DNA from: Accumulibacter sp.
GTDB lineage: Bacteria; Pseudomonadota; Gammaproteobacteria; Burkholderiales; Rhodocyclaceae
Direction of reading: 5' to 3'
NCBI GenBank assembly: GCA_017302455.1
Contig: JAFLDO010000032.1
Location: forward strand, 1 to 57,646
DNA: 57,646 bases
Positions 1-52,114 of this stretch are shown piece after piece (position 1 is the first letter of the stretch; every line of letters begins with the position of its first letter). A program made the translations under genes and the position numbers. The notes beneath the pieces are model-generated. The model was not told the origin of the DNA. It did no database searches and saw nothing but the letters and a program-made list of their open reading frames with translations.

Positions 1-59
1 GAGGACGGCCGGACCCGGGATATTCACTCCGCCACCTCGCTCGCCGCTGACAGATGCTC

Positions 60-109
60 CGCGCGCCCGACGGCGCCGGCCAGGTCGTCGGTTTCCGCTT
101 TGCCCTGAG
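60..109 (+). repeat. DGR variable repeat VR0 (recently homed tract)
   Basis: These 50 bases align without gaps to TR 2811-2860. I count seven mismatches: AAC to CGC, AAC to GGC twice, and GAC to GTC. All seven are at adenines of the TR (7 of 10 A changed, 0 of 40 other bases). This is the signature of adenine-directed mutagenic retrohoming. Left of position 60 the match to the TR collapses, so the freshly copied tract appears to cover only the 3-prime part of the repeat. Confidence 0.88.
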
Positions 110-121
110 GTCCACGAGCCC
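110..121 (+). other. Candidate IMH (initiation of mutagenic homing) sequence after VR0
   Basis: Directly after the shared CTGAG that ends the repeats, VR0 reads gtccacgagccc and VR1 (3840-3851) reads gtccacgggccc, 11 of 12 identical, whereas the TR continues ctcgatcggcag. A short element shared by the VRs but divergent in the TR is what is expected of an IMH versus its inactive copy beside the TR. Confidence 0.5.
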
Positions 122-127
122 AGCCGG

Positions 128-234
128 GGCCACGGAGTGGCCGGCGCCGCGGAGCGGCGCTGACGGTGCCGCGGGACGCGGCACCGTTGCCGCCCCCGGG
201 ACGGGGGCGGCAACGAAAAAGCGCAGGAAGCGCT
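128..234 (+). other. Array of five consecutive GGA-loop hairpins between VR0 and the DGR accessory gene
   Basis: Five inverted repeats follow one another almost without spacers. H1 is 128-142 (GGCCAC/GTGGCC, loop GGA); H2 is 144-160 (GCGCCGC/GCGGCGC, loop GGA); H3 is 163-187 (11-bp perfect stem, loop GGA); H4 is 186-214 (13-bp perfect stem, loop GGA); H5 is 220-234 (AGCGC/GCGCT, loop AGGAA). H3 and H4 share two bases. Every loop holds GGA although the stems differ completely. No T-tract follows, so a terminator is unlikely. Stem-loops just downstream of a VR assist DGR homing in the Bordetella phage system; alternatively GGA in hairpin loops is the recognition element of CsrA/RsmA. The inverted repeats are seen directly; their function is inference. 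Confidence 0.8.
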
Positions 235-307
235 GAGGGACGAAGCGCGCCGGGCCGCCAATGACCCCTCGATTTCTCGAACCCACACCGCGAAGGGAGA
301 ACGCCGC

Positions 308-799
308 ATGAGCTGCGAGTTGCATTTTTTCGCCATCCCCGCCCTCGACAGCCGCGCGGCACAGGACGCGCTCAACGGCTTCCTGGCGCAGCACCGCGTG
401 CTGAGCGTCGAGAAGCAGTGGCTGGAGGCCGGCGTCAATTCGCACTGGGCGCTGTGCATCGGCGTCGACACCGGCGTCGGTCCGCTGCCGGACGCACTGA
501 AAGTGGGCCAAGGCAAGGCCGGGCGGCCTGGCAGGGTCGATTACCGCGAGGTGTTGTCGCCGGAAGATTTTGCCGTTTTCGCCGCCTTGCGCAGCCTGCG
601 CAAGGAGTTGAGCGAGCGCGACGGCGTGCCGCCCTATACGCTGTTCACCAACGAGCAGTTGGCGTCGATGGCACGCGATCGACCGGCCAGCGAACAGGCG
701 CTGCGCGCCATCGACGGCGTCGGCGAAGCGCGCTCGCGCCGGTACGCGCCGCCGTTCCTCGCCGCCATCGCCGCCGCCTGCGGCGGGCCGGCGGCGTGA
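308..799 (+). CDS. HRDC-domain DGR accessory protein
   Basis: A 163-residue protein whose C-terminal half (about residues 85-160) is an HRDC domain: a helix with FAALRSLRKELSERDGVPPY, then LFTNEQLASMARDRPASEQAL and the closing IDGVGEARSRRYAPPFLAAI. The N-terminal half (MSCELHFFAIPA) is a separate small domain I cannot name. HRDC domains bind nucleic acid in RecQ/RNase D proteins, and HRDC proteins are a known alternative to Avd as DGR accessory factors, where they probably deliver or shape the TR RNA for the RT. A purine-rich GAAGGGAG lies about 9 bases before the ATG. The stop codon overlaps the RT start as GTGA, implying translational coupling and a stoichiometric partnership with the RT. 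Confidence 0.75.
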   Translation: MSCELHFFAIPALDSRAAQDALNGFLAQHRVLSVEKQWLEAGVNSHWALCIGVDTGVGPLPDALKVGQGKAGRPGRVDYREVLSPEDFAVFAALRSLRKELSERDGVPPYTLFTNEQLASMARDRPASEQALRAIDGVGEARSRRYAPPFLAAIAAACGGPAA

Positions 800-1827
800 A
801 GCGACTGGCGATTCGCCTCGAGGAGGTGGCCGAGCGCAGCAACCTCATGCTCGCCACCTGGAAAGCGGCGCGCGGCAAGCGCCAGCGACCGGCCGTGGCG
901 CGTTTCCTCGCCGACCTCGACGGCCAGCTCGATCATCTGGCAGCCTGCATCCTCAACGGCCAGGCACCGCAGGGGCAGTACACGAGCTTCACGATCCACG
1001 ACCCGAAGCGACGCCTGATCCACGCCGCGTGTTTCGCCGACCGTGTTCTGCAGCACGCGATACTGAATCTCGCCGAGCCGCGCTTCGAAGCGATGCTCGT
1101 CGATTCGACGTACGCCTGCCGGCCGGGCAAGGGCGTGCACGCCGCGGCCCGGCAGGTGCAGCGCAATCTGCAACGCTTCGCCTGGCGCGTACAGGTCGAC
1201 GTCGACAGCTACTTTCCGAGTATCGACCACGCCTGCCTCAAGGCGTTGCTGGCCACACGCTTCAAGGGTGCCGGCTTCCTGGCGCTGCTTGGGCGAATCA
1301 TCGACACCGCCGGCGATGCCGGCCGCGGCCTGCCGATCGGCTCGCTCACTTCGCAGCACTTCGCCAATGCCTACCTCGACACCGCCGATCGTCGCCTGCT
1401 CGAAGATCGCCGGGTGCGCGCCCACGTACGCTACATGGACGACATCCTCTGGTGGTGCGACAGCCGCGCCGACGCGCTGGCGACGCTTGCCGAGTTGAAC
1501 GATTTTCTCCGGCGCGAGCGCGGCCTGCAACTCAAGCCCAAGGTCAGCATCGCGCCGAGCCGCACCGTCGTCGCCTGGTGCGGCTTCCGCATCGACCAGG
1601 CAGTGATCCTGCCGAGCCGGCGCAAGCTCGCGCGCTATCGCCGGCACGCGCGCCAGATCGAGTGCGCGTGGGCCAGCGGTCAGGTCAGCGAGGCCGAAGT
1701 ACAGCGTGCCAGCGCCAACTCGCTCGCCACGCTCGCGCACAGTCGCAGCCTCGGATTTCGCCGGCGCTTCTGGCAGCAGCACCCGAGCCTTGACGATCTG
1801 GCAGCCGGTCAACCCGATCACCCGTAG
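796..1827 (+). CDS. DGR reverse transcriptase
   Basis: A 343-residue reverse transcriptase. The start is taken as GTG 796, overlapping the HRDC stop, and gives VKRLAIRLEEVAERSNL, a plausible helical N-terminus; the reading frame stays open upstream but without RT homology. RT motifs seen are DVDSYFPSID (about 135-144), GLPIGSLTSQHFANAYLD (about 178-195) and the catalytic YMDD (213-216). The LTSQ form of motif 4, where group II intron RTs have QG, is typical of DGR RTs. No maturase, endonuclease or integrase domain follows. It should copy the TR RNA into adenine-mutated cDNA that replaces VRs. Its TAG stop (1825-1827) lies inside a REP element, so the extreme C-terminus may have been remodelled by insertion. 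Confidence 0.92.
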   Translation: MKRLAIRLEEVAERSNLMLATWKAARGKRQRPAVARFLADLDGQLDHLAACILNGQAPQGQYTSFTIHDPKRRLIHAACFADRVLQHAILNLAEPRFEAMLVDSTYACRPGKGVHAAARQVQRNLQRFAWRVQVDVDSYFPSIDHACLKALLATRFKGAGFLALLGRIIDTAGDAGRGLPIGSLTSQHFANAYLDTADRRLLEDRRVRAHVRYMDDILWWCDSRADALATLAELNDFLRRERGLQLKPKVSIAPSRTVVAWCGFRIDQAVILPSRRKLARYRRHARQIECAWASGQVSEAEVQRASANSLATLAHSRSLGFRRRFWQQHPSLDDLAAGQPDHP

Positions 1828-1852
1828 GTTGGGGTGAGCCCGCGAACCCCAA
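1824..1852 (+). repeat. REP element, copy 1 (overlaps RT stop codon)
   Basis: A 29-base sequence starting GTAGGTTGGGGTGAGCCCGC, with stem arms TTGGGGT and ACCCCAA. It recurs identically at 2555-2583 and in inverse orientation at 2416-2444. These flank and follow the RAYT gene, the usual arrangement of REP sequences around their cognate transposase. Confidence 0.85.
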
Positions 1853-1880
1853 GACCCAGGCGATCCACTATCATGCCGCC

Positions 1881-2405
1881 ATGCGCTATCGTCGGGCCAA
1901 TGTCGCCGGGGCGACGTACTTCTTCACGGTCAACCTCGCCGACCGCCAATCGAGCCTGCTCGTCGACCACATCGATGCCTTGCGCGAAGCGCTGCGACGG
2001 GTGCGCCAGGTGCATCCCTTCGGTATCGACGCCATGGTCGTTCTCCCCGATCACCTGCACGCCCTGTGGACGCTGCCGCTCGGCGACGCGGACTTCGCCA
2101 CTCGCTGGATGCTCATCAAGGCCGGCTTTTCGCGGCAGATTCCGGCGACCGAGTTCCGTTCGCCAAGCCGTGTGGCGAAGGGGGAACGCGGGATCTGGCA
2201 GCGCCGCTATTGGGAGCATGTGATTCGTGACGAGGAGGACTTCGCACGGCATGTCGAATACATCCATTTCAATCCCGTCAAGCATGGGCTGGTGCGGCAG
2301 CCGGTGGAGTGGCCCTATTCGTCGCTGCACCGGTATGTTCGGCTTGGCTTGGTGGGGGCTGAGTGGGCGTCGGATGGCCGTGGCGAGGGGCGGTTCGGTG
2401 GGTGA
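1881..2405 (+). CDS. REP-associated tyrosine transposase (RAYT, TnpA_REP family)
   Basis: A 174-residue single-domain Y1 transposase of the IS200-like HUH class. The metal-binding HLH is at residues 58-60 in VLPDHLHALWTLP, and the nucleophilic tyrosine is Y127 in VEYIHFNPVKHGLV; both are intact. The length is normal for RAYTs (about 165-180). RAYTs bind and process REP hairpins, and three copies of a 29-base REP surround this gene, two in inverted orientation directly flanking it. It sits between the DGR reverse transcriptase and its template repeat, where DGRs normally have only a short spacer, so it looks like a passenger that entered the cassette. It starts at ATG 1881; no strong Shine-Dalgarno is visible. 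Confidence 0.88.
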   Translation: MRYRRANVAGATYFFTVNLADRQSSLLVDHIDALREALRRVRQVHPFGIDAMVVLPDHLHALWTLPLGDADFATRWMLIKAGFSRQIPATEFRSPSRVAKGERGIWQRRYWEHVIRDEEDFARHVEYIHFNPVKHGLVRQPVEWPYSSLHRYVRLGLVGAEWASDGRGEGRFGG

Positions 2406-2415
2406 TGGCGAGGTG

Positions 2416-2444
2416 TTGGGGTTCGCGGGCTCACCCCAACCTAC
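2416..2444 (-). repeat. REP element, copy 2 (inverted)
   Basis: Exact reverse complement of the 29-base REP at 1824-1852, placed 10 bases after the RAYT stop codon. Copies 1 and 2 therefore bracket the transposase gene as an inverted pair, a BIME-like unit. Confidence 0.85.
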
Positions 2445-2491
2445 GACGTTTTCCGGACCGGGAGCCATGGCTGGCGCGATGGGCAGGCGAT

Positions 2492-2541
2492 ATTCACCTA
2501 TTGATGCCGGCCGAGTCGCGGATGATGGATGCCGTGATCAG
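2492..2541 (+). repeat. Diverged duplicate of the TR leader (matches 2660-2709)
   Basis: Fifty bases beginning ATTCACC align ungapped with 2660-2709 at about 37 of 50 identities, including ATGGATG followed by CGTGA. The 2660-2709 copy leads into the template repeat, while this copy leads into REP copy 3. It may be the leader of a lost TR or a duplication accompanying REP insertion. Confidence 0.5.
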
Positions 2542-2554
2542 CAGCCTGCAACCC

Positions 2555-2583
2555 GTAGGTTGGGGTGAGCCCGCGAACCCCAA
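2555..2583 (+). repeat. REP element, copy 3
   Basis: Identical to the 29-base REP at 1824-1852 and in the same orientation, 110 bases beyond the inverted copy. Bases 2584-2659 after it hold no gene I recognise. Confidence 0.85.
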
Positions 2584-2732
2584 CACCCGATCGTCACACG
2601 ACCGCTCCGCCATCGTTTCGCCATGCGTGCGCCGGCGCGGCGAGCGGTGGAGTGGCTGGATTCACCCATTCGTGCTTCCCGGATCGGCGATAATGGATGT
2701 CGTGAACAGTGCCGATTGCCAGCAGAGCAAGA

Positions 2733-2860
2733 AGTGTGTCCGAGCGCGCGCTACGCGGCGGCTCCTGGAACAACGACGCCAGGAACGTCCGCTCGGCGAA
2801 CCGCAACGCGAACGCGCCCGACAACGCCAACCAGGACGTCGGTTTCCGCTTTGCCCTGAG
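2733..2860 (+). repeat. DGR template repeat (TR)
   Basis: About 128 bases that align ungapped to VR1 (3712-3839, offset 979), and over their last 50 bases to VR0. Read in the VR frame it gives LRGGSWNNDARNVRSANRN followed by ANAPDNANQDVGFRFALSS, with eight AAC codons at the ligand-contact positions of the lectin fold. AAC-rich codons are the hallmark of TRs because adenines are randomised during copying. The open frame through it (from 2709) continues into unrelated sequence and is not a gene. The leader 2660-2732 is probably part of the TR RNA. A small hairpin (2874-2889, GGGTGT-CGAA-ACACCC) follows 13 bases downstream. Confidence 0.92.
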
Positions 2861-2873
2861 CTCGATCGGCAGC

Positions 2874-2889
2874 GGGTGTCGAAACACCC
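2874..2889 (+). other. Hairpin downstream of TR
   Basis: Six-base-pair stem GGGTGT/ACACCC with a CGAA loop, 13 bases after the TR end. It could help to bound or fold the TR RNA. The remaining bases up to the target gene at 3049 show nothing else I can support. Confidence 0.4.
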
Positions 2890-3048
2890 CGGCATGGACT
2901 TGCCGTTGCCGATGGACCAGGCGCTGTTTCCGGTGGTGGGTGCCGCGGGGCGCCTGCCCAAACTCGAAGGCTCCCGGGGTGTGGGTAGTGGCGGCGCCGC
3001 AGCGCCGTCGCGACAGCTCCCCGGGAAGCCGCTTTCCGGTAACGGGCA

Positions 3049-3867
3049 ATGAACGCCGTCCTCGATGCGGAAACCTGGCGCCGGCGTGGGCCGGCGGCCT
3101 TCCCGCCGCCCTGGGCGAGCGCCTGGGGTGGCGATCGCTTCGGCCTGTGGGCCGATCTGGCGGTTGCCGGCGTCGTGCAGCGCCTGCGCTGGATCGAGCC
3201 CGGCAGTTTTCTGATGGGCGACGAGACGCAGCCGGAGAGCCAGGTGCTGACGACGATCGACGCCGGTTTCTGGCTGGCCGATACGGCCTGCACGCAGGCG
3301 CTGTGGCTGGCGGTGATGGGCGAGAATCCGAGCTATTTCAGCGAGGCGAATGAACGTCAGCGAGGCAGTCCGCAACATCCGGTCGAGTGCGTGAGCTGGA
3401 ACGATGTGGTGTTGCCGCCGGACGGTTTCCTTGCCCGCCTGCGGCCCTTTACTGCCGGCGTTGCGCCCGAACTACCGACCGACGCCGAGTGGGAATACGC
3501 GTGCCGCGCCGGCACCCGGACGGCCTACAGTTTCGGCGACCGGATCACCTCGGAGCAGGTGAACTGCTTCGGGCGGTTTGGTGAGGGCATGACCGTGGCG
3601 GTGAGAAGCTTGCCGGCGAACCTGTGGGGACTTTACGAGATGCATGGCAACGTGTGGGAGTGGTGTGCCCATGCCATTGATCGGGAGTGGCGAAGCACCC
3701 AAGGCGATGGCAGTGTGGCCGCGCGCACGCTGCGCGGCGGCTCTTGGCTCTACGATCCCATGGGCGCCGGCTCGGCGTTCCGCCGCGGGTTCGCGTCCGA
3801 CGGCTCTCTCCAGCACGACGGTTTCCGCTTTGCACTGAGGTCCACGGGCCCGGCAGCGGCCCGCTAA
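3049..3867 (+). CDS. DGR target protein B, FGE-sulfatase/C-type-lectin fold
   Basis: A 272-residue protein of the formylglycine-generating-enzyme-like superfamily used as scaffold in many DGR targets. Landmarks in order: WADLAVAGVVQRLRWIEPG and FLMGDE (about 35-60), WLADTACTQALWLAVMG, HPVECVSWNDV, LPTDAEWEYACRAGT (about 142-156), NLWGLYEMHGNVWEW, then the C-terminal LRGGSW (228-233) and GFRFALRS (258-265). Residues 234-257 between W and GFR form the variable loop. The eight positions encoded by AAC in the TR here read L234, Y235, G239, F244, R246, F248, G252 and L254. No signal peptide or membrane segment is evident, so it is probably cytoplasmic. It is a ligand-binding protein rather than a sulfatase activator. 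The Shine-Dalgarno is weak. Confidence 0.88.
   Translation: MNAVLDAETWRRRGPAAFPPPWASAWGGDRFGLWADLAVAGVVQRLRWIEPGSFLMGDETQPESQVLTTIDAGFWLADTACTQALWLAVMGENPSYFSEANERQRGSPQHPVECVSWNDVVLPPDGFLARLRPFTAGVAPELPTDAEWEYACRAGTRTAYSFGDRITSEQVNCFGRFGEGMTVAVRSLPANLWGLYEMHGNVWEWCAHAIDREWRSTQGDGSVAARTLRGGSWLYDPMGAGSAFRRGFASDGSLQHDGFRFALRSTGPAAAR
3712..3839 (+). repeat. DGR variable repeat VR1 (C-terminus of target B)
   Basis: Ungapped alignment with TR 2733-2860 gives about 32 mismatches by hand count: about 17 of 25 TR adenines differ, against about 15 of 103 other bases. All eight AAC codons are substituted and each keeps its third-position C, as expected when only adenines are randomised. The residual non-adenine changes mean VR1 has not been overwritten from this TR for a long time, or was templated by an earlier TR version. 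Confidence 0.9.
3840..3851 (+). other. Candidate IMH sequence after VR1
   Basis: gtccacgggccc matches the 12 bases after VR0 (110-121) at 11 positions and differs from the TR continuation. The stop codon of target B follows 13 bases later. The GGA hairpin run found after VR0 is not repeated here; only a weak six-base-pair stem with a 7-base loop is visible. Confidence 0.45.
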
Positions 3868-4124: not shown

Positions 4125-5300
4125 ATGTCGCACCTGATGAATACCTACGCTCGCTTGCCGATCGCCTTCAGTCATGGCGACGGGAGTTGGCTGACCGATA
4201 CCGAGGGCAAGTGCTATCTCGACGCCTTGTCGGGTATCGCCGTCAATACATTGGGGCACAACCATCCGGATCTGGTCGCGGCGATCGCCGCGCAGGCCGG
4301 GCGCCTGCTGCACACCTCGAACCTCTACCGCATCCCGCAGCAGGAGCAACTCGCCGACAAGCTGGCGGCGCTGGCCGGCATGGACGAGGTCTTCTTCTGC
4401 AACTCGGGTTGCGAGGCCAACGAGGCGGCGATCAAGCTGGCGCGTTTCTACGGCCACCAGCAGGGCATCGACAGCCCGGCGATCGTCGTCATGGAGAAGG
4501 CGTTCCACGGCCGCACGATGGCGACGCTGTCGGCGACCGGCAATCGCAAGGCGCAGGCCGGTTTCGAGCCGCTGGTTTCGGGTTTTGCGCGCGTTCGCTA
4601 CAACGATCTGGAGGCGATCAAGGCGGTTGCCCGCAACAACAAGAACGTCGTTGCGGTGATGCTCGAAATCGTCCAGGGGGAGGGCGGCGTCAACATCGCC
4701 GATGTCGGCTTCCAGCGCAGCCTGCGCGCGCTCTGTGACGACCGCGGCTGGCTGCTGATCTGCGACGAGGTGCAGTGCGGCACCGGCCGCACCGGCACCT
4801 GGTTCGCCTTCCAGCACGCCGGCATTCGCCCGGACGTGGTGACGCTGGCCAAGGGGCTTGGCGGCGGCGTGCCGATCGGCGCCTGTCTGACGGCGGGCAA
4901 GGCGAGTCGCCTGTTCAAGCCGGGCAATCACGGGTCGACCTTCGGCGGCAATCAACTGGCCACGACGGCGGCGCTGACGACCCTGGCCGTGATCGAGAAG
5001 GATGGCTTGCTCGCCAACGCCGTTGCCGTCGGGCAACTGATCCGCGATGGCCTGGCGCAGGCGCTGGCCGGCACGCAAGGCCTGGTCGACATCCGCGGCC
5101 AGGGACTGATGATCGGCATCGAACTCGATCGCGCCTGCGGCGAACTGGTGACGCGCGGCCTCGAGGCGGGCGTGCTGATCAATGTCACCGCCGACAAGGT
5201 GGTCCGCCTGCTGCCGCCGTTGACCTTCAGCGCCGACGAAGCGCGCGAGCTGGTGGCGCGCCTGGCGAAGCTGATCGGCGATTTCCTCGCCGCCCGATAG
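4125..5300 (+). CDS. argD: Acetylornithine aminotransferase
   Basis: A 391-residue class III PLP-dependent aminotransferase converting N-acetylglutamate semialdehyde to N-acetylornithine in arginine synthesis (it may also serve succinyldiaminopimelate). Seen: the glycine-rich cofactor region NSGCEANEAAIKLARFYG (93-110), FHGRT (127-131), the PLP-ring aspartate D214 in ICDEVQCGTGRTG, and the Schiff-base lysine K243 in TLAKGLGGGVPIG. The start at ATG 4125 gives MSHLMNTYARLPIAFSHGDG, the normal family N-terminus; the frame is open further upstream without homology. It is first in a tight argD-argF-argG operon, 9 bases before argF. Confidence 0.95.
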   Translation: MSHLMNTYARLPIAFSHGDGSWLTDTEGKCYLDALSGIAVNTLGHNHPDLVAAIAAQAGRLLHTSNLYRIPQQEQLADKLAALAGMDEVFFCNSGCEANEAAIKLARFYGHQQGIDSPAIVVMEKAFHGRTMATLSATGNRKAQAGFEPLVSGFARVRYNDLEAIKAVARNNKNVVAVMLEIVQGEGGVNIADVGFQRSLRALCDDRGWLLICDEVQCGTGRTGTWFAFQHAGIRPDVVTLAKGLGGGVPIGACLTAGKASRLFKPGNHGSTFGGNQLATTAALTTLAVIEKDGLLANAVAVGQLIRDGLAQALAGTQGLVDIRGQGLMIGIELDRACGELVTRGLEAGVLINVTADKVVRLLPPLTFSADEARELVARLAKLIGDFLAAR

Positions 5301-7767: not shown

Positions 7768-8079
7768 ATGTCGCAATTCGACAATGTCAGCGTCGTCAAG
7801 CAGGCCAATGTCTACTTCGACGGCAAGTGTGTCAGCCATACGGTTTTCCTTGCCGACGGTACGCGCAAGACTGTCGGCGTCATCCTGCCATCGACGCTGA
7901 CCTTCAACACCGGCGCTCCCGAAGTCATGGAAGGGGTCGGCGGCGCCTGCCGTGTTCGTCTTCAGGGCGAGGGCCAGTGGCGGGACTACGCGGCCGGCGA
8001 GTCCTTTGCCGTGCCGGGCGATTCGGCGTTCGAAATCGCCTGCGACGAGCCCTATCACTACGTCTGCCACTTCGCCTAG
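7768..8079 (+). CDS. ppnP: Pyrimidine/purine nucleoside phosphorylase (PpnP/YaiE, cupin fold)
   Basis: A 103-residue single-domain cupin of the former DUF1255 family, which phosphorolyses a range of nucleosides to base and ribose-1-phosphate. Recognised by [41 protein letters not shown], the [19 protein letters not shown] turn and the terminal [11 protein letters not shown] 7768 is preferred over an in-frame GTG at 7762 because family N-termini are short; GGAG lies upstream. It begins 3 bases after the DUF2788 gene. Confidence 0.85.
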
Positions 8080-8154
8080 GGCGAGCGGCGGGGCGCCCGC
8101 CGCTGCCGCCTGAAACCGCCCATTGACCATCAGAAACCACCGAACGGACGCCGC

Positions 8155-8649
8155 ATGCCTTCATTCGATTTTTCTTCAGAAGCCGACATGGCTGCACTGA
8201 CCAATGCGATCGACGTCACGCGTCGGGCCATCGACAATCGCTACGACTTCAAGGCAACCAGTGCCAAGGTCGAGTTGAACGAAAAGGACAAGCTGATCAC
8301 GCTGCACGGGGACTCCGACTTCCAGCTCGACCAGATCAAGGATCTGCTGTTTCCGGCGATGGAGAAGAAGGAGAAGGAGAGCACCAAGCGGCTCGACAGC
8401 CAGCCGGTGCAGCGGGTCTCGGGCAACAAGGTCAAGCAGGATCTGAAGATCAAGGTCGGCATCGAGTCGGAACTGGCGAAGAAGATCGTCAAGCTGATCA
8501 AGGATTCGAAACTCAAGGTGCAGGCGTCGATCCAGGGCGATGCGGTGCGCGTCAGCGGTGCCAAGCGCGATGAGCTGCAGGCCTGCATCGCACTGGTCAC
8601 CAAGGAGATTACGGACTTTCCGATCAAGTACGGAAACTTCCGCGATTGA
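8155..8649 (+). CDS. yajQ: YajQ family nucleotide-binding protein
   Basis: A 164-residue protein of the normal family length. It starts MPSFDFSSEADMAALTNAID and contains NRYDFKATSA, the VKQDLKIKVGIESELAKKIVKLIKDSKLKVQASIQGD core and the ending TDFPIKYGNFRD. The fold is two ferredoxin-like domains. Xanthomonas and Pseudomonas members bind cyclic di-GMP and act with a transcription factor; whether this one does is not visible from sequence. Monocistronic spacing on both sides. Confidence 0.93.
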   Translation: MPSFDFSSEADMAALTNAIDVTRRAIDNRYDFKATSAKVELNEKDKLITLHGDSDFQLDQIKDLLFPAMEKKEKESTKRLDSQPVQRVSGNKVKQDLKIKVGIESELAKKIVKLIKDSKLKVQASIQGDAVRVSGAKRDELQACIALVTKEITDFPIKYGNFRD

Positions 8650-8877
8650 TCGACGGGGCGGGCGAGACCCTGTGCCAACGCGCCTTTCCCTTGCTGCAGT
8701 GCGAGATGCTGTGCTAGCGTATGCGGTTGATGTTTACGAGGAGCACCCTGTGCCGCGTCGAGAAAAGTGGCCAGCCGTTGATTGCCTGGCGGCGATTGCC
8801 GGTCCTGCGAATGCGGGTCGTTCGCTCGCCGCCGGTACTTCGCGAGTACGGCAGCGATTGCTGCCGACGAGCGCCTG

Positions 8878-11800
8878 ATGCTCGATAAGCCTGCCAAGCA
8901 TTCCCCAGCCGAGGACAAGGCCGACCTCGGCGTCCTATCCTGGACTGAGGAACTGCGCCGGGTGGCCGTGGCGGTCAGCAAGAAGGACCGTCGCCCCGCC
9001 GCTTCCCGCCAACAGCTTTTCTACCTGCTGCACTGGACTCCCGATGCCCGGGGTTTCGGGATCAGCGTGCACAAGGGCCGTGACCCGGAGAGCGCCGATG
9101 CCTTGTGGGCCATCGATCGCGCGCTGAGCAAGCCGCCGCGCTTTGTCGGCGACGAGGATCGGCCGATCCTCCGCCTGCTGTGGGCGGAACGTTCCTTCGA
9201 CAGCGGGTTGCGCGCTTTCGGGCTCGGGCCCCGGCACGGCGGCGAGGTACTCGATCTGATGGCGCAGACCGGTCGGCTGTGCCGCAAGGACGACTTTTCG
9301 GTGCTGACGCTCGCCGAGGCGCGCCCGGCGACGCTCGGCTGGCAGCTCAATGCCGACGGACGACGCATCCCCTTGCTCAAGCCCGAGCCTCCCGCGAAGC
9401 TGATCATTCCTCTGCTGGCGCCGTGGTACCTCGATCTCGACAAGCGCCAGATCGGTCCACTACTGGTGCGCGGCAATCAGGCAGTCGTCGCGCGACTGTT
9501 CTCCCTGCCGCCGCTGTCGGCGACGGCGGCGGCGCTGGTTGGTGAAGCACTCGCGGAACCATCGGGAGAACTGCCCGGCGACCCGGAAAATGCCAGCGCC
9601 AGTATGCGCAGCCTGGAGGCCGATCTGGTGCCGGCGCTTCGCCTGGAGACGCTGAGTACGCACGGCAACCGTGCCTGGCGCGACTACTTGGCGAGCTACG
9701 GCGGCGGGCCTTTCGATATCGCCTTGCCGGTTTTCCGCTACGCGGACGTCGAATTGCGGCCCGACGACACGCACGATGTCGCAACTCTGACGACTGGCGA
9801 AATGGTTCGCATCGTCCGCGACAGCCAGCGGGAAGAGCGGTTGATGGACGAACTGGCCGCTGCCGGTATCGAGAAGATCCCGGGTTATGTGCTGCAGACC
9901 TTCGGCAAGCCGCCGGACAACGCCTACGGGCTGGCTTTCGAAGGCTGTTGGCCGGTGTTGATGCGCGAGTGTCTGGCGCGCCTGCGCGGCGCTGGCTGGC
10001 AGGTCGAGTTCTCCGCCGATTTTCGCCATCGCGTGCTCGAGGTGGAGTCGTGGGACGCTGACCTGGTCGAATCGGACGACGGCTGGTTCAGTCTCGACAT
10101 GGGCGTCATCGTCGAAGGCGAGCGCTTGCCGCTGGCGCCGCTGCTGGCAACGCTGTTCCGGCGTGACGGGCGGTGGCTGGATGCCGCCTTGCTGGCGCAG
10201 ATCGACGATGCCGAAACGATCGAGCTGGTGACTCCCTCGTGCCACCGTATTCGTGCGCCGGCGTGGCGTCTGAAGCCACTGGCAGGAACGCTGATCGATC
10301 TTTTCGATGGCTTCTCCGGCGGCACAGCCTTGCGTCTGTCGCGTTTCGATGCGCCCCGTCTGGCCGAGTTCAACGACAGCAGTCGCTGGCGCTTCCGGGG
10401 ACAAAGCGATGTCCAGGCGCTCGCCGAGCAGCTGACGGCGGCGCAGGGAATCAGCCACATCGCGCCCCCGCTTGGCCTCGGGCTCGAACTGCGCCACTAC
10501 CAGACCGAGGGGCTGGCCTGGCTGCAGTTCCTGCGCGAACAGAACCTGGCAGGGATTCTCGCCGACGACATGGGCCTCGGCAAGACGGCGCAGACGCTGG
10601 CGCATCTGCTGCTGGAGAAGGAAGCCGGGCGGCTCGATCGCCCGGCGTTGATCGTCTTGCCGACCTCGCTGATCTTCAACTGGAAGAACGAGGCGGCCCG
10701 CTTTGCCCCCGGCTTGTCGATCCTTTCGCTGCATGGTCCGGAGCGCAAGCGCCGTTTTGCCGAGATCGCCGGGCATGACGTGGTGCTGACCACCTACCCG
10801 CTGCTGTGGCGCGATGCCGCCGAGTTGACCCGGCACAGTTACCACCTGCTGATCCTCGACGAAGCGCAGACGGTCAAGAACGCGCGCAGCCAGGGTGCTG
10901 AAGTGGTGCGCAAGATTACCGCCCGGCATCGCCTCTGCCTGACCGGTACGCCGCTGGAGAATCACCTCGGCGAGCTGTGGAGTCAGTTCGATTTCCTGCT
11001 GCCCGGCTTTCTCGGCAGCAACCAGAGCTTCACCAAGCACTGGCGGACGCCGATCGAGAAACAGGGCGATGCGCAACGTCGTGACTTGCTCGCCCGCCGG
11101 GTTCGCCCGTTCATCCTGCGCCGCAAGAAGGAAGAGGTGGCACGCGAGTTGCCGCCGAAGACGATCATCGTGCGCAAGGTCGAACTCGCCGGGAGCCAGC
11201 GCGACCTGTACGAAACGGTGCGCGTGGCAATGGACGAGAAAGTCCGTGAGGAGATCGCCAACAAGGGCTTCAACCGCAGCCAGATCGTCATTCTCGATGC
11301 CCTTCTGAAGCTGCGCCAGGTGTGCTGCGACCCGCGCCTGGTCAAGGCCAGGTCCGCCCAGAAGGTCAAGGAGCGGGCCAAGCTCGATCTGTTGATGACG
11401 ATGTTGCCGGAGCAGGTGGAGGAGGGCCGGCGCATTCTCCTGTTTTCGCAGTTCACCAGCATGCTGGCGCTGATCGAGAAGGAGCTGAAGCTTGCCGGCA
11501 TCGACTACGTCATCCTCACCGGCGACACCCGCGATCGCGAAGCGCAGGTTCGCCGCTTTCAGGCGTGCGAAGTGCCGGTCTTCCTGATCAGCCTGAAAAC
11601 TGGCGGCGTCGGCCTGAATCTGACCGCCGCCGATACGGTGATCCACTACGACCCGTGGTGGAACCCGGCTGCCGAAAACCAGGCTACCGATCGTGCGCAT
11701 CGTCTCGGCCAGGACAAGCCCGTCTTCGTCTACAAGCTGATCGTCGCCGGCAGCATCGAGGAAAAGATCCTGGCTCTGCAGGAGCGCAAGGCTGAACTGG

Positions 11801-52037: not shown

Positions 52038-52114
52038 TGGCGGAGTGGACGGGACTCGAACCCGCGACCCCCGGCGTGACAGGCCGGTATTCTAACCAAC
52101 TGAACTACCACTCC
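52038..52114 (-). tRNA. tRNA-Asp (anticodon GTC)
   Basis: 77 nucleotides on the minus strand, including an encoded CCA. Acceptor GGAGTGG/CCACTCC, D-loop AGTTCAGTTGGTTAGAAT, anticodon stem CCGGC/GCCGG with GTC at 52078-52080, and T-loop GGTTCGAGTCC. All four arms pair. Confidence 0.97.

Follow-up and report, generated by a model that had tools for sequence, protein, structure and literature searches.

An HRDC-type diversity-generating retroelement in Accumulibacter with one apparently freshly written and one apparently drifted target

We analysed a 57,646-nucleotide stretch of an Accumulibacter sp. assembly, hereafter the window (GCA_017302455.1, contig JAFLDO010000032.1, positions 1 to 57,646, forward strand). 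Its first 3.9 kb carries a diversity-generating retroelement (DGR) with a reverse transcriptase (RT), an HRDC-domain accessory protein whose gene overlaps that of the RT by 4 nt, a template repeat (TR), and two targets, T0 and T1, that contain VR0 and VR1 (Table 1). The RT shows the DGR pattern [ILV]GxxxSQ plus YxDD, as IGSLTSQ (residue 181) and YMDD (residue 213). Its best solved-structure match by sequence was 8ub7 (E = 7e-42), an entry titled only "Reverse transcriptase" that we take to be the BPP-1 DGR enzyme, far above the best group II intron RT (2.4e-12). Together with the RT motifs, we found C-terminal VRs with adenine-specific differences and a difference between IMH and IMH*, which identify the element as a DGR, and the HRDC gene beside the RT makes it one of the HRDC type. 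These results bear out the earlier note, which had called the element a DGR and had pointed to LTSQ and YMDD motifs in the RT and to an overlapping HRDC gene. Both RT and HRDC are full length, with dN/dS values against A. vicinus of 0.17 and 0.23, respectively. The RT tree covered close relatives and three other RTs, and a structure of HRDC predicted from the single sequence was discarded (mean pLDDT 44).

Table 1. Positions of the DGR features in the window.
Feature	Position	Strand	Remarks
T0, 3' end	1..236	+	FGE domain with VR0; rest of T0 on contig C107
VR0, 3' part	62..112	+	with IMH
Four perfect hairpins with GGA triloop	128..215	+	128-142, 144-160, 163-187, 185-215; last two overlap by 3 bases
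HRDC-domain accessory protein, 163 aa	308..799	+	PF00570 E 8e-19
DGR reverse transcriptase, 343 aa	796..1827	+	RVT_1 E 2.6e-12; stop codon inside left REP
REP palindrome	1823..1852	+	
REP-associated tyrosine transposase (RAYT), 174 aa	1881..2405	+	NF047646 E 5.9e-61, 204.6 bits, cut-off 80
REP palindrome	2416..2445	-	
REP palindrome	2554..2583	+	
GATAAT, possible -10 box of TR transcript	2689..2694	+	kept in A. vicinus and G004
Template repeat TR	about 2733..2863	+	ends in IMH*
Structured spacer RNA (predicted)	2912..3033	+	main stem 2969-2982 with 3016-3030
Target T1, stand-alone FGE-type protein, 272 aa	3049..3867	+	PF03781 E 2e-30
VR1, drifted	3704..3842	+	no GGA hairpin behind it
argD-like gene	4125..5300	+	right flank of island

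The DGR had been described as complete within 3.9 kb, with two FGE-type targets ending in VRs. This holds for RT, HRDC, TR and T1 with VR1, but base 1 of the window is a contig end and only the last part of T0 lies within it. Window bases 61-85 are identical to the terminal 25 bases of contig C107, which encodes a TIR protein, a MoxR-like ATPase and T0. We infer that contigs C107 and C53 adjoin, and the order from C107 to the window is supported by synteny with relatives and by the empty site of the island; the TIR-MoxR-T0 order is found on a single contig in A. vicinus and in G004. Window bases 1-60 have no other occurrence in the genome, and an assembly artefact at the contig end may account for them. 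The island is bounded by a zinc-ribbon gene on one side and, on the other, by a gene that we take to be argD from its context and family knowledge. This site is empty in 8/25 other congeners having argD. We rejected a common insertion site across all species, as the island lies at argD only in the window, G004, G014 and G022, with a T1 remnant in G009.

Once continued on C107, T0 is a protein of >880 residues encoded behind the TIR protein and the MoxR-like ATPase (AAA_5, E = 2e-15; bpMoxR, E = 3e-6, 27 bits at a cut-off of 27). Its length and its place in the TIR-MoxR operon of C107 give T0 the look of a conflict-system sensor, and the window locus is probably one half, the retroelement part, of a conflict island diversified by a DGR. 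The effector before MoxR is exchanged among relatives, being TIR here and trypsin-like in two relatives. T0 had no Pfam vWA match. When the N-terminus of the A. vicinus T0 was modelled (pLDDT 73), the top three Foldseek matches were vWA, all weak (E = 0.04-0.12), so that T0 may combine a possibly vWA-like N-terminus with a C-terminal FGE domain that holds VR0. Searches for VMAP, iSTAND and FtsH families found none in the TIR protein, MoxR or T0; lacking such a third component, the operon was not classed as a classical MoxR-vWA ternary system. PADLOC returned no match for TIR, T0 or T1. The targets are under purifying selection.

The RT and TR are separated by a RAYT gene and three REP palindromes (1823-2583), which the earlier note had missed. 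This REP-associated transposase with its flanking palindromes constitutes a RAYT/REP element, and the same palindrome has three more copies in the genome. G004 carries the same RAYT unit at 85% identity, which makes the unit old provided that only one insertion took place. The locus in G004 has lost HRDC, RT and the greater part of TR.

Pooled over relatives, 699 of 1205 adenines and 123 of 4472 other bases differed between TR and VR. This count omits alignments scoring <120, so that L075, L117, L124, L134, L137 and L140 are left out on both sides, and L063, L116, L127, L130, L138, L139 and L142 on one side; the window's partial VR0 is left out as well. In the window, VR0 (62-112) differs from TR at 5/8 adenines and 1/43 other bases, the single non-adenine change falling at the position where IMH and IMH* differ (GAGGTCCAC in VRs, GAGCTCGA in TRs, with the same difference in the window, A. 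vicinus and G010). The claim that VR0 differs only at adenines thus stands, this base aside, for the alignable part, and not for bases 1-60, which cannot be aligned to TR. The C107 part of VR0 differs from its own TR at 16/22 adenines and 0/80 other bases, whereas 6/78 other bases differ from the A. vicinus TR, which argues that VR0 was copied from the window TR after the split. By these comparisons VR0 looks freshly written. It carries a one-base deletion on C107 that shifts the frame and may be real or an assembly fault.

We observed a different pattern at VR1. Adenine bias is clear on the longer alignment (21/29 adenines against 17/110 other bases, Fisher p = 9e-9) and on a shorter one (17/25 and 16/106), in keeping with an earlier hand count (17/25 and 15/103). 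The reading frame of VR1 is open, and its IMH carries a single base change. However, its non-adenine change (15%) exceeds that of all 44 comparison VRs, the range being 0-7.8% at the 31 VRs of loci with a full-length RT. As VR1 is equally distant from the A. vicinus TR (17/103 other bases) and from its own (16/106), it is VR1, not TR, that moved. VR1 has thus drifted and is probably no longer refreshed in this genome. The earlier proposal that two ligand-binding proteins are diversified overreaches, since recent overwriting is supported by the sequence for VR0 alone.

Two non-coding features appear to mark this DGR lineage. The first is the spacer RNA 3' of TR, in which double changes occur at 10/15 pairs (0/500 shuffles), a covariation that was reproduced on 14 unseen places. 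The window spacer scored 82.1 bits (E = 9.3e-16) against our model R1, whose training set includes the window sequence itself, and we regarded matches at L128 and L136 (E >0.001) as chance. A permissive Rfam search yielded three hits below threshold, none over the spacer. The model also found loci in G026:C2 and in G010 at 1.62 Mb without trace of RT or HRDC, and so detects DGR templates where the RT is gone.

The second feature is an array of one to five GGA-triloop hairpins 3' of VRs, counted at 46 VRs (the 44 comparison VRs and both window VRs). We found 83 such hairpins in 7,360 bases 3' of VRs and 8 in 293,942 background bases of the same loci (the 19 longer loci that had a scored VR, with the window taken in full), while the 37 VRs of those loci had 0 hairpins of the GRNA type. 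The hairpin expected 3' of a DGR VR is present at VR0 (four copies) and absent at VR1, with a loop that differs from the published GRNA tetraloop and provides a simple target signature. Over 45 VRs (the window's partial VR0 omitted), the number of hairpins was uncorrelated with drift (rho = -0.04, p = 0.81), so we do not use it as a predictor of VR freshness and keep it as a possible cause at VR1. It is unlikely that the hairpins are CsrA/RsmA-kind translation-control sites, or an unrelated repeat family, instead of DGR target sites. Their GGA loops, the missing correlation with drift and a weak, sub-threshold Rfam RsmW match at window 160-220 (28 bits against a gathering score of 52, E = 0.098) are compatible with such a role, but such long, perfectly paired stems closed by a triloop are not typical of Csr sites. 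The hairpins, moreover, are almost absent away from VRs in the same loci, and GC-rich hairpins at the same place are described as needed by BPP-1 and carried by other phage DGRs (PMC3240598).

In a census of the genus, 15/25 two-target loci had a truncated or absent RT and kept both targets (scored by eye from coordinates, leaving out loci split at contig ends or with a single target). This repeated loss suggests that the targets' sensors are useful without further mutation. VRs at RT-broken loci (median 2.0% non-adenine changes) were not clearly more drifted than those at RT-intact loci (p = 0.19), which leaves a group-wide extra drift unsupported and means that a fresh-looking VR is no proof of present activity. 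The same low median would fit a DGR that is already dead, in which the RAYT insertion severed TR from the RT transcript and VR0 is simply undrifted so far, as would the RAYT and REPs that part RT from TR, the location of the RT's stop codon in a REP and the losses that accompany the unit in G004. We consider this distinctly unlikely, given the full-length RT and HRDC with their low dN/dS, the retained GATAAT-like box upstream of TR and beyond the insertion, and a RAYT unit that would be old if inserted once, with VR0 rewritten after the window TR gained its own bases. That both targets are live and VR1 merely looks drifted, for example through a change in TR after its last rewriting, is very improbable, since for all its adenine bias, open frame and IMH changed at one base, VR1 is no closer to the A. 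vicinus TR than to its own and exceeds every comparison VR in non-adenine change, while VR0 equals the present TR at 80/80 other bases.

We therefore favor, as the probable reading, a conflict-island DGR in which VR0 was recently overwritten and VR1 is unrefreshed, and whose relatives lose the machinery and keep the sensors. Sequence comparison supports its anatomy, adenine bias, VR0 recency, VR1 drift, RNA covariation, hairpin enrichment, contig order and recurrent RT loss. The island would read zinc-ribbon gene, TIR, MoxR, T0, HRDC, RT, REP-RAYT-REP, REP, TR, spacer RNA, T1, argD. TR and spacer would be transcribed, and the folded spacer would recruit RT plus HRDC. The RT would copy TR with errors opposite adenines, and the cDNA would replace VR0, guided by IMH and the GGA hairpins behind VR0. 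With a rewritten FGE tip, T0 would bind new ligands and signal via MoxR to the TIR effector, and RT loss in relatives would fix a useful sensor.

Earlier publications already report HRDC accessories, Accumulibacter DGRs and MoxR systems linked to DGRs; the parts of this locus are known singly and are here tied together in a testable way. Accumulibacter has been named among bacteria with several related DGRs (PMC10907252). The same work describes MoxR-type loci in Thiohalocapsa PB-PSB1; these, and DGR 9 in particular, resemble the window in placing a DGR target beside a MoxR ATPase and an effector (trypsin-like in DGR 9, TIR here) and in being invaded and degraded by mobile elements. Its passages on these loci do not mention a spacer RNA family, GGA arrays or RAYT, and the word "hrdc" is absent from its main text. 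The chromosomal Treponema denticola DGR, reported as having no phage genes, also has an HRDC gene overlapping the RT gene, but there HRDC lies between TR and RT, whereas the window has the order T0-HRDC-RT-TR-T1, two flanking targets and a MoxR operon (PMC4891356). As described for the BPP-1 DGR, we find TR, IMH/IMH*, a structured spacer 3' of TR, a hairpin 3' of VR and adenine-directed differences; the accessory there is Avd instead of HRDC, with one GRNA-tetraloop hairpin instead of one to five with GGA triloops (PMC3240598, PMC12875486). MoxR-vWA ternary conflict systems, as presented in PMC7159879, share the MoxR-like ATPase, exchangeable effectors and an FGE-fold domain diversified by a DGR; for the locus here, our scans matched no VMAP family, and vWA is only suggested by weak fold matches.

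A fresh and a drifted VR beneath one RT and TR in one genome provide a natural control for VR substrate choice. That sensors may be useful without further mutation is relevant to the question of DGRs as a source of an adaptive immune repertoire that bacteria inherit. We tentatively suggest that the HRDC-type DGRs of sludge Proteobacteria could be a lineage with its own RNA/DNA code, comprising a covarying spacer RNA that seats RT and HRDC and multi-hairpin GGA-triloop arrays that mark targets, and could serve immune-like sensors in a "diversify, then fix" manner. After a sensor has become functional, deletion would remove the RT core, in some cases next to a RAYT, or rewriting of one target would cease, and the sensor would be passed on without change.

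The window, which opens at base 1 of contig C53 in a genome of 4.93 Mb, holds a genuine diversity-generating retroelement (DGR) with an HRDC accessory, belonging to a TIR-MoxR island. The positions that an earlier note had assigned to the HRDC gene, the RT, the template repeat (TR) and the FGE-type target were all borne out (see table). The RT contains the motifs IGSLTSQ and YMDD, and its closest solved structure is 8ub7 (E 7e-42), which we take to be the DGR enzyme of BPP-1; the best group II intron RT scored only 2.4e-12. The genome also contains another, more remote DGR-like locus (L051, on G000:C9), whose RT is ~33% identical.

Features of the window, of contig C107 and of the second DGR-like locus
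Sequence	Feature	Position	Strand	Match
Window	HRDC gene	308-799		
Window	RT gene	796-1827		
Window	REP palindromes around RAYT	1823, 2416, 2554		
Window	TR	about 2733-2863		
Window	T1, FGE-type target	3049-3867		
C107	TIR protein			TIR_2, E 8e-10
C107	MoxR-like ATPase			AAA_5, E 2e-15; bpMoxR, E 3e-6
C107	T0 (>880 residues)			C-terminal FGE domain, E 3e-39
L051	RT match	3752-2883	minus	
L051	TR-like stretch	4316-4248	minus	
L051	FGE matches	2262-2696 and 5033-4557		

To the left of the window, the locus continues on another contig. A genome search with the TR found a TR-like stretch at the extreme end of contig C107, the final 25 bases of which are identical to window 61-85. C107 carries, in order, PIG-L, zinc-ribbon, TIR protein and MoxR-like ATPase genes and T0, the left target. 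On single contigs, the related species A. vicinus has the order TIR-MoxR-T0-HRDC-RT-TR-T1 and genome G004 has PIG-L, zinc ribbon, TIR, MoxR, T0, a REP-associated tyrosine transposase (RAYT), T1 and argD. Of the other genomes of the genus, 25 yielded argD, and in 8 of these the zinc-ribbon gene adjoins it with the island absent. Based on these two gene orders and the empty zinc-ribbon/argD site, we placed C107 directly left of C53. The contig break falls within VR0, the variable repeat of T0, as would be expected if this repeat differed among cells of the sequenced population. Window 1-60 shows no alignment to the TR and no other match in the genome, and may be either a second VR haplotype or an artefact of assembly at the contig end.

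To compare repeats, we used an alignment scoring in which changes at TR adenines are unpenalised. Pooling the 44 VRs of relatives gave changes at 699/1205 adenine sites and 123/4472 other sites. The earlier note had read the element as probably diversifying two target proteins; the sequences support recent overwriting for VR0 only, whereas VR1, the repeat of the right target T1, has drifted. The part of VR0 on C107 differs from its own TR at 16/22 adenines and 0/80 other sites, with one base missing within an adenine-rich stretch, and from the A. vicinus TR at 6/78 other sites, so VR0 was copied from the window's TR after the split from A. vicinus. VR1 differs from the TR at 21/29 adenines and 17/110 other sites, the highest non-adenine change of all VRs. 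As VR1 is equally far at non-adenine sites from the A. vicinus TR (17/103) and its own (16/106), it is VR1, rather than the TR, that has changed. Non-adenine change was 0-7.8% (median 1.9%, 31 VRs) at loci with a full-length RT and 1-9.2% (median 2.0%, 13 VRs) where the RT is truncated or missing, with no significant difference between the two groups (p 0.19). A control locus in Accumulibacter Bin228 (L075; RT 8001-8981) has YMDH instead of YMDD, lacks T1, and is changed at 16/69 non-adenine sites in its best TR-VR pair, which lies under the score cut-off and was excluded from the pooled counts; L075 is apparently a dead DGR whose RT is otherwise full-length.

Immediately 3' of the TR, a spacer of ~120 bases is conserved in 20 loci from Accumulibacter, Zoogloea, Defluviicoccus, Contendobacter, Thiothrix and Methylomonas. 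Its long stem covaries, with 98% of cells paired and double-sided changes in 10 of 15 pairs (shuffles, 0/500; slid controls, 33-51%), and was recovered in seven of eight spacers folded singly (z-scores -0.76 to -3.22), L074 preferring another fold. We searched 101 relatives and 369 genomes of the class, two slightly overlapping sets, with a covariance model, which matched 29 places at E below 1e-4. An FGE match lies at most 1.5 kb away at 28 of these places (on the opposite strand at L141), and the 29th has RT and HRDC; two weaker matches have neither FGE nor RT/HRDC. At the 14 places unused in model building, 94% of cells pair and 10/15 pairs are doubly changed, in an alignment that was fitted to the model and is therefore biased in its favour. 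No Rfam family matched across the spacer, the sole gathering-level match in the whole window being a tRNA gene (52041-52114, minus strand). In BPP-1, a folded spacer recruits the RT complex (PMC12875486), and no spacer family for HRDC-type DGRs was found in the portions of the DGR literature searched.

Downstream of 46 VRs, within 160 bases on the 3' side, there are 83 perfect hairpins (stem at least 5) with a GGA loop, the runner-up triloop occurring four times, compared with 8 GGA hairpins in the 293,942 remaining bases of the 19 longer loci. At least one is present at 37 of the 46 VRs; the GRNA tetraloop, reported as the consensus loop of phage DGRs (PMC3240598), was found at none of 37 VRs, and a literature search on GGA-triloop arrays found no matching paper. 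In the window genome VR0 has four and VR1 none, and the T1 genes at the same site in G004, G014 and G022 also lack them. Absence of these hairpins could be the reason for VR1 drift, but neither hairpin number (rho -0.04, p 0.81, 45 VRs) nor presence (9 VRs without vs 36 with, p 0.42) was related to drift, and the VRs lacking GGA hairpins include fresh examples from distant taxa, which a different hairpin type may serve.

The window's RAYT (NF047646, E 5.9e-61) lies between RT and TR, where the RT match ends 909 bases from the TR, compared with 133 in A. vicinus. Homology with A. vicinus restarts at 2678, immediately 5' of a GATAAT-like box and the TR, and the left REP contains the RT stop codon. 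The genome has six REP copies (at most 3 mismatches), three of them within this locus. Five of the genus's 28 above-cut-off RAYTs are in or adjoin DGR loci and, judged by position, look like three insertions: before the TR (window and G004), in HRDC after residue 103 (G003 and G024) and downstream of T1 (G025). Their common right flank leads us to infer one shared insertion for the window and G004. As degradation of DGR loci by mobile elements has been reported in Thiohalocapsa (PMC10907252), the Accumulibacter cases add a further example of an established process; a literature search pairing DGR with the RAYT transposase name found no paper.

Counted from coordinates, with the window locus taken across the contig break, 25 loci of the genus have both targets, 10 with a full-length YMDD RT and 15 with a truncated or absent RT. 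In G004 the deletion stops at the RAYT-side REP, six bases past the final T0-tail homology, and the TR is reduced to a stub. The order zinc ribbon-TIR-MoxR-T0-T1-argD persists in G014 and G022, where the stretch separating T0 from T1 gave no match to HRDC, RT or RAYT. Purifying selection acts on the targets and on MoxR, also in the comparison of G014 with G022 (dN/dS: T1, 0.22; T0 N-terminus, 0.21; MoxR, 0.19). A 26.6 kb contig (G025:C63) carries two such loci, L062 and L162, each with a truncated HRDC-RT core.

The cassette seems to be mobile between sludge bacteria, since RTs of Zoogloea and of Defluviicoccus (Rhodospirillaceae; an alphaproteobacterium) nest among those of Accumulibacter in the RT tree, the Defluviicoccus placement being weakly supported (85/84), gene order is conserved, and the Thiothrix fructosivorans plasmid pTfr446 (L082) carries the same cassette, effector-MoxR-T0-HRDC-RT-TR-T1. 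The gene 5' of MoxR differs between loci: 16 scanned in relatives comprised four TIR, two SEFIR/TIR, three DUF4062, two trypsin-like and one metallophosphatase gene, one with a metallophosphatase match only at E 0.04, and three without a match. A variable effector beside a constant core is common to this island and the conflict systems of Kaur et al., in which effectors are swapped beside a kept core (PMC7159879). No VMAP family matched the C107 TIR protein, MoxR or T0, and the T0 N-terminus, with weak vWA-like fold matches, may be vWA-like. By analogy, the island would work like these conflict systems, without being assigned as a classical ternary system. Accumulibacter DGRs were already noted in 2012 (PMC3521204), and the DGR itself is of a known kind; it is set apart as a variant by its spacer RNA, by the GGA arrays and by the way targets have repeatedly been kept after the RT was lost.
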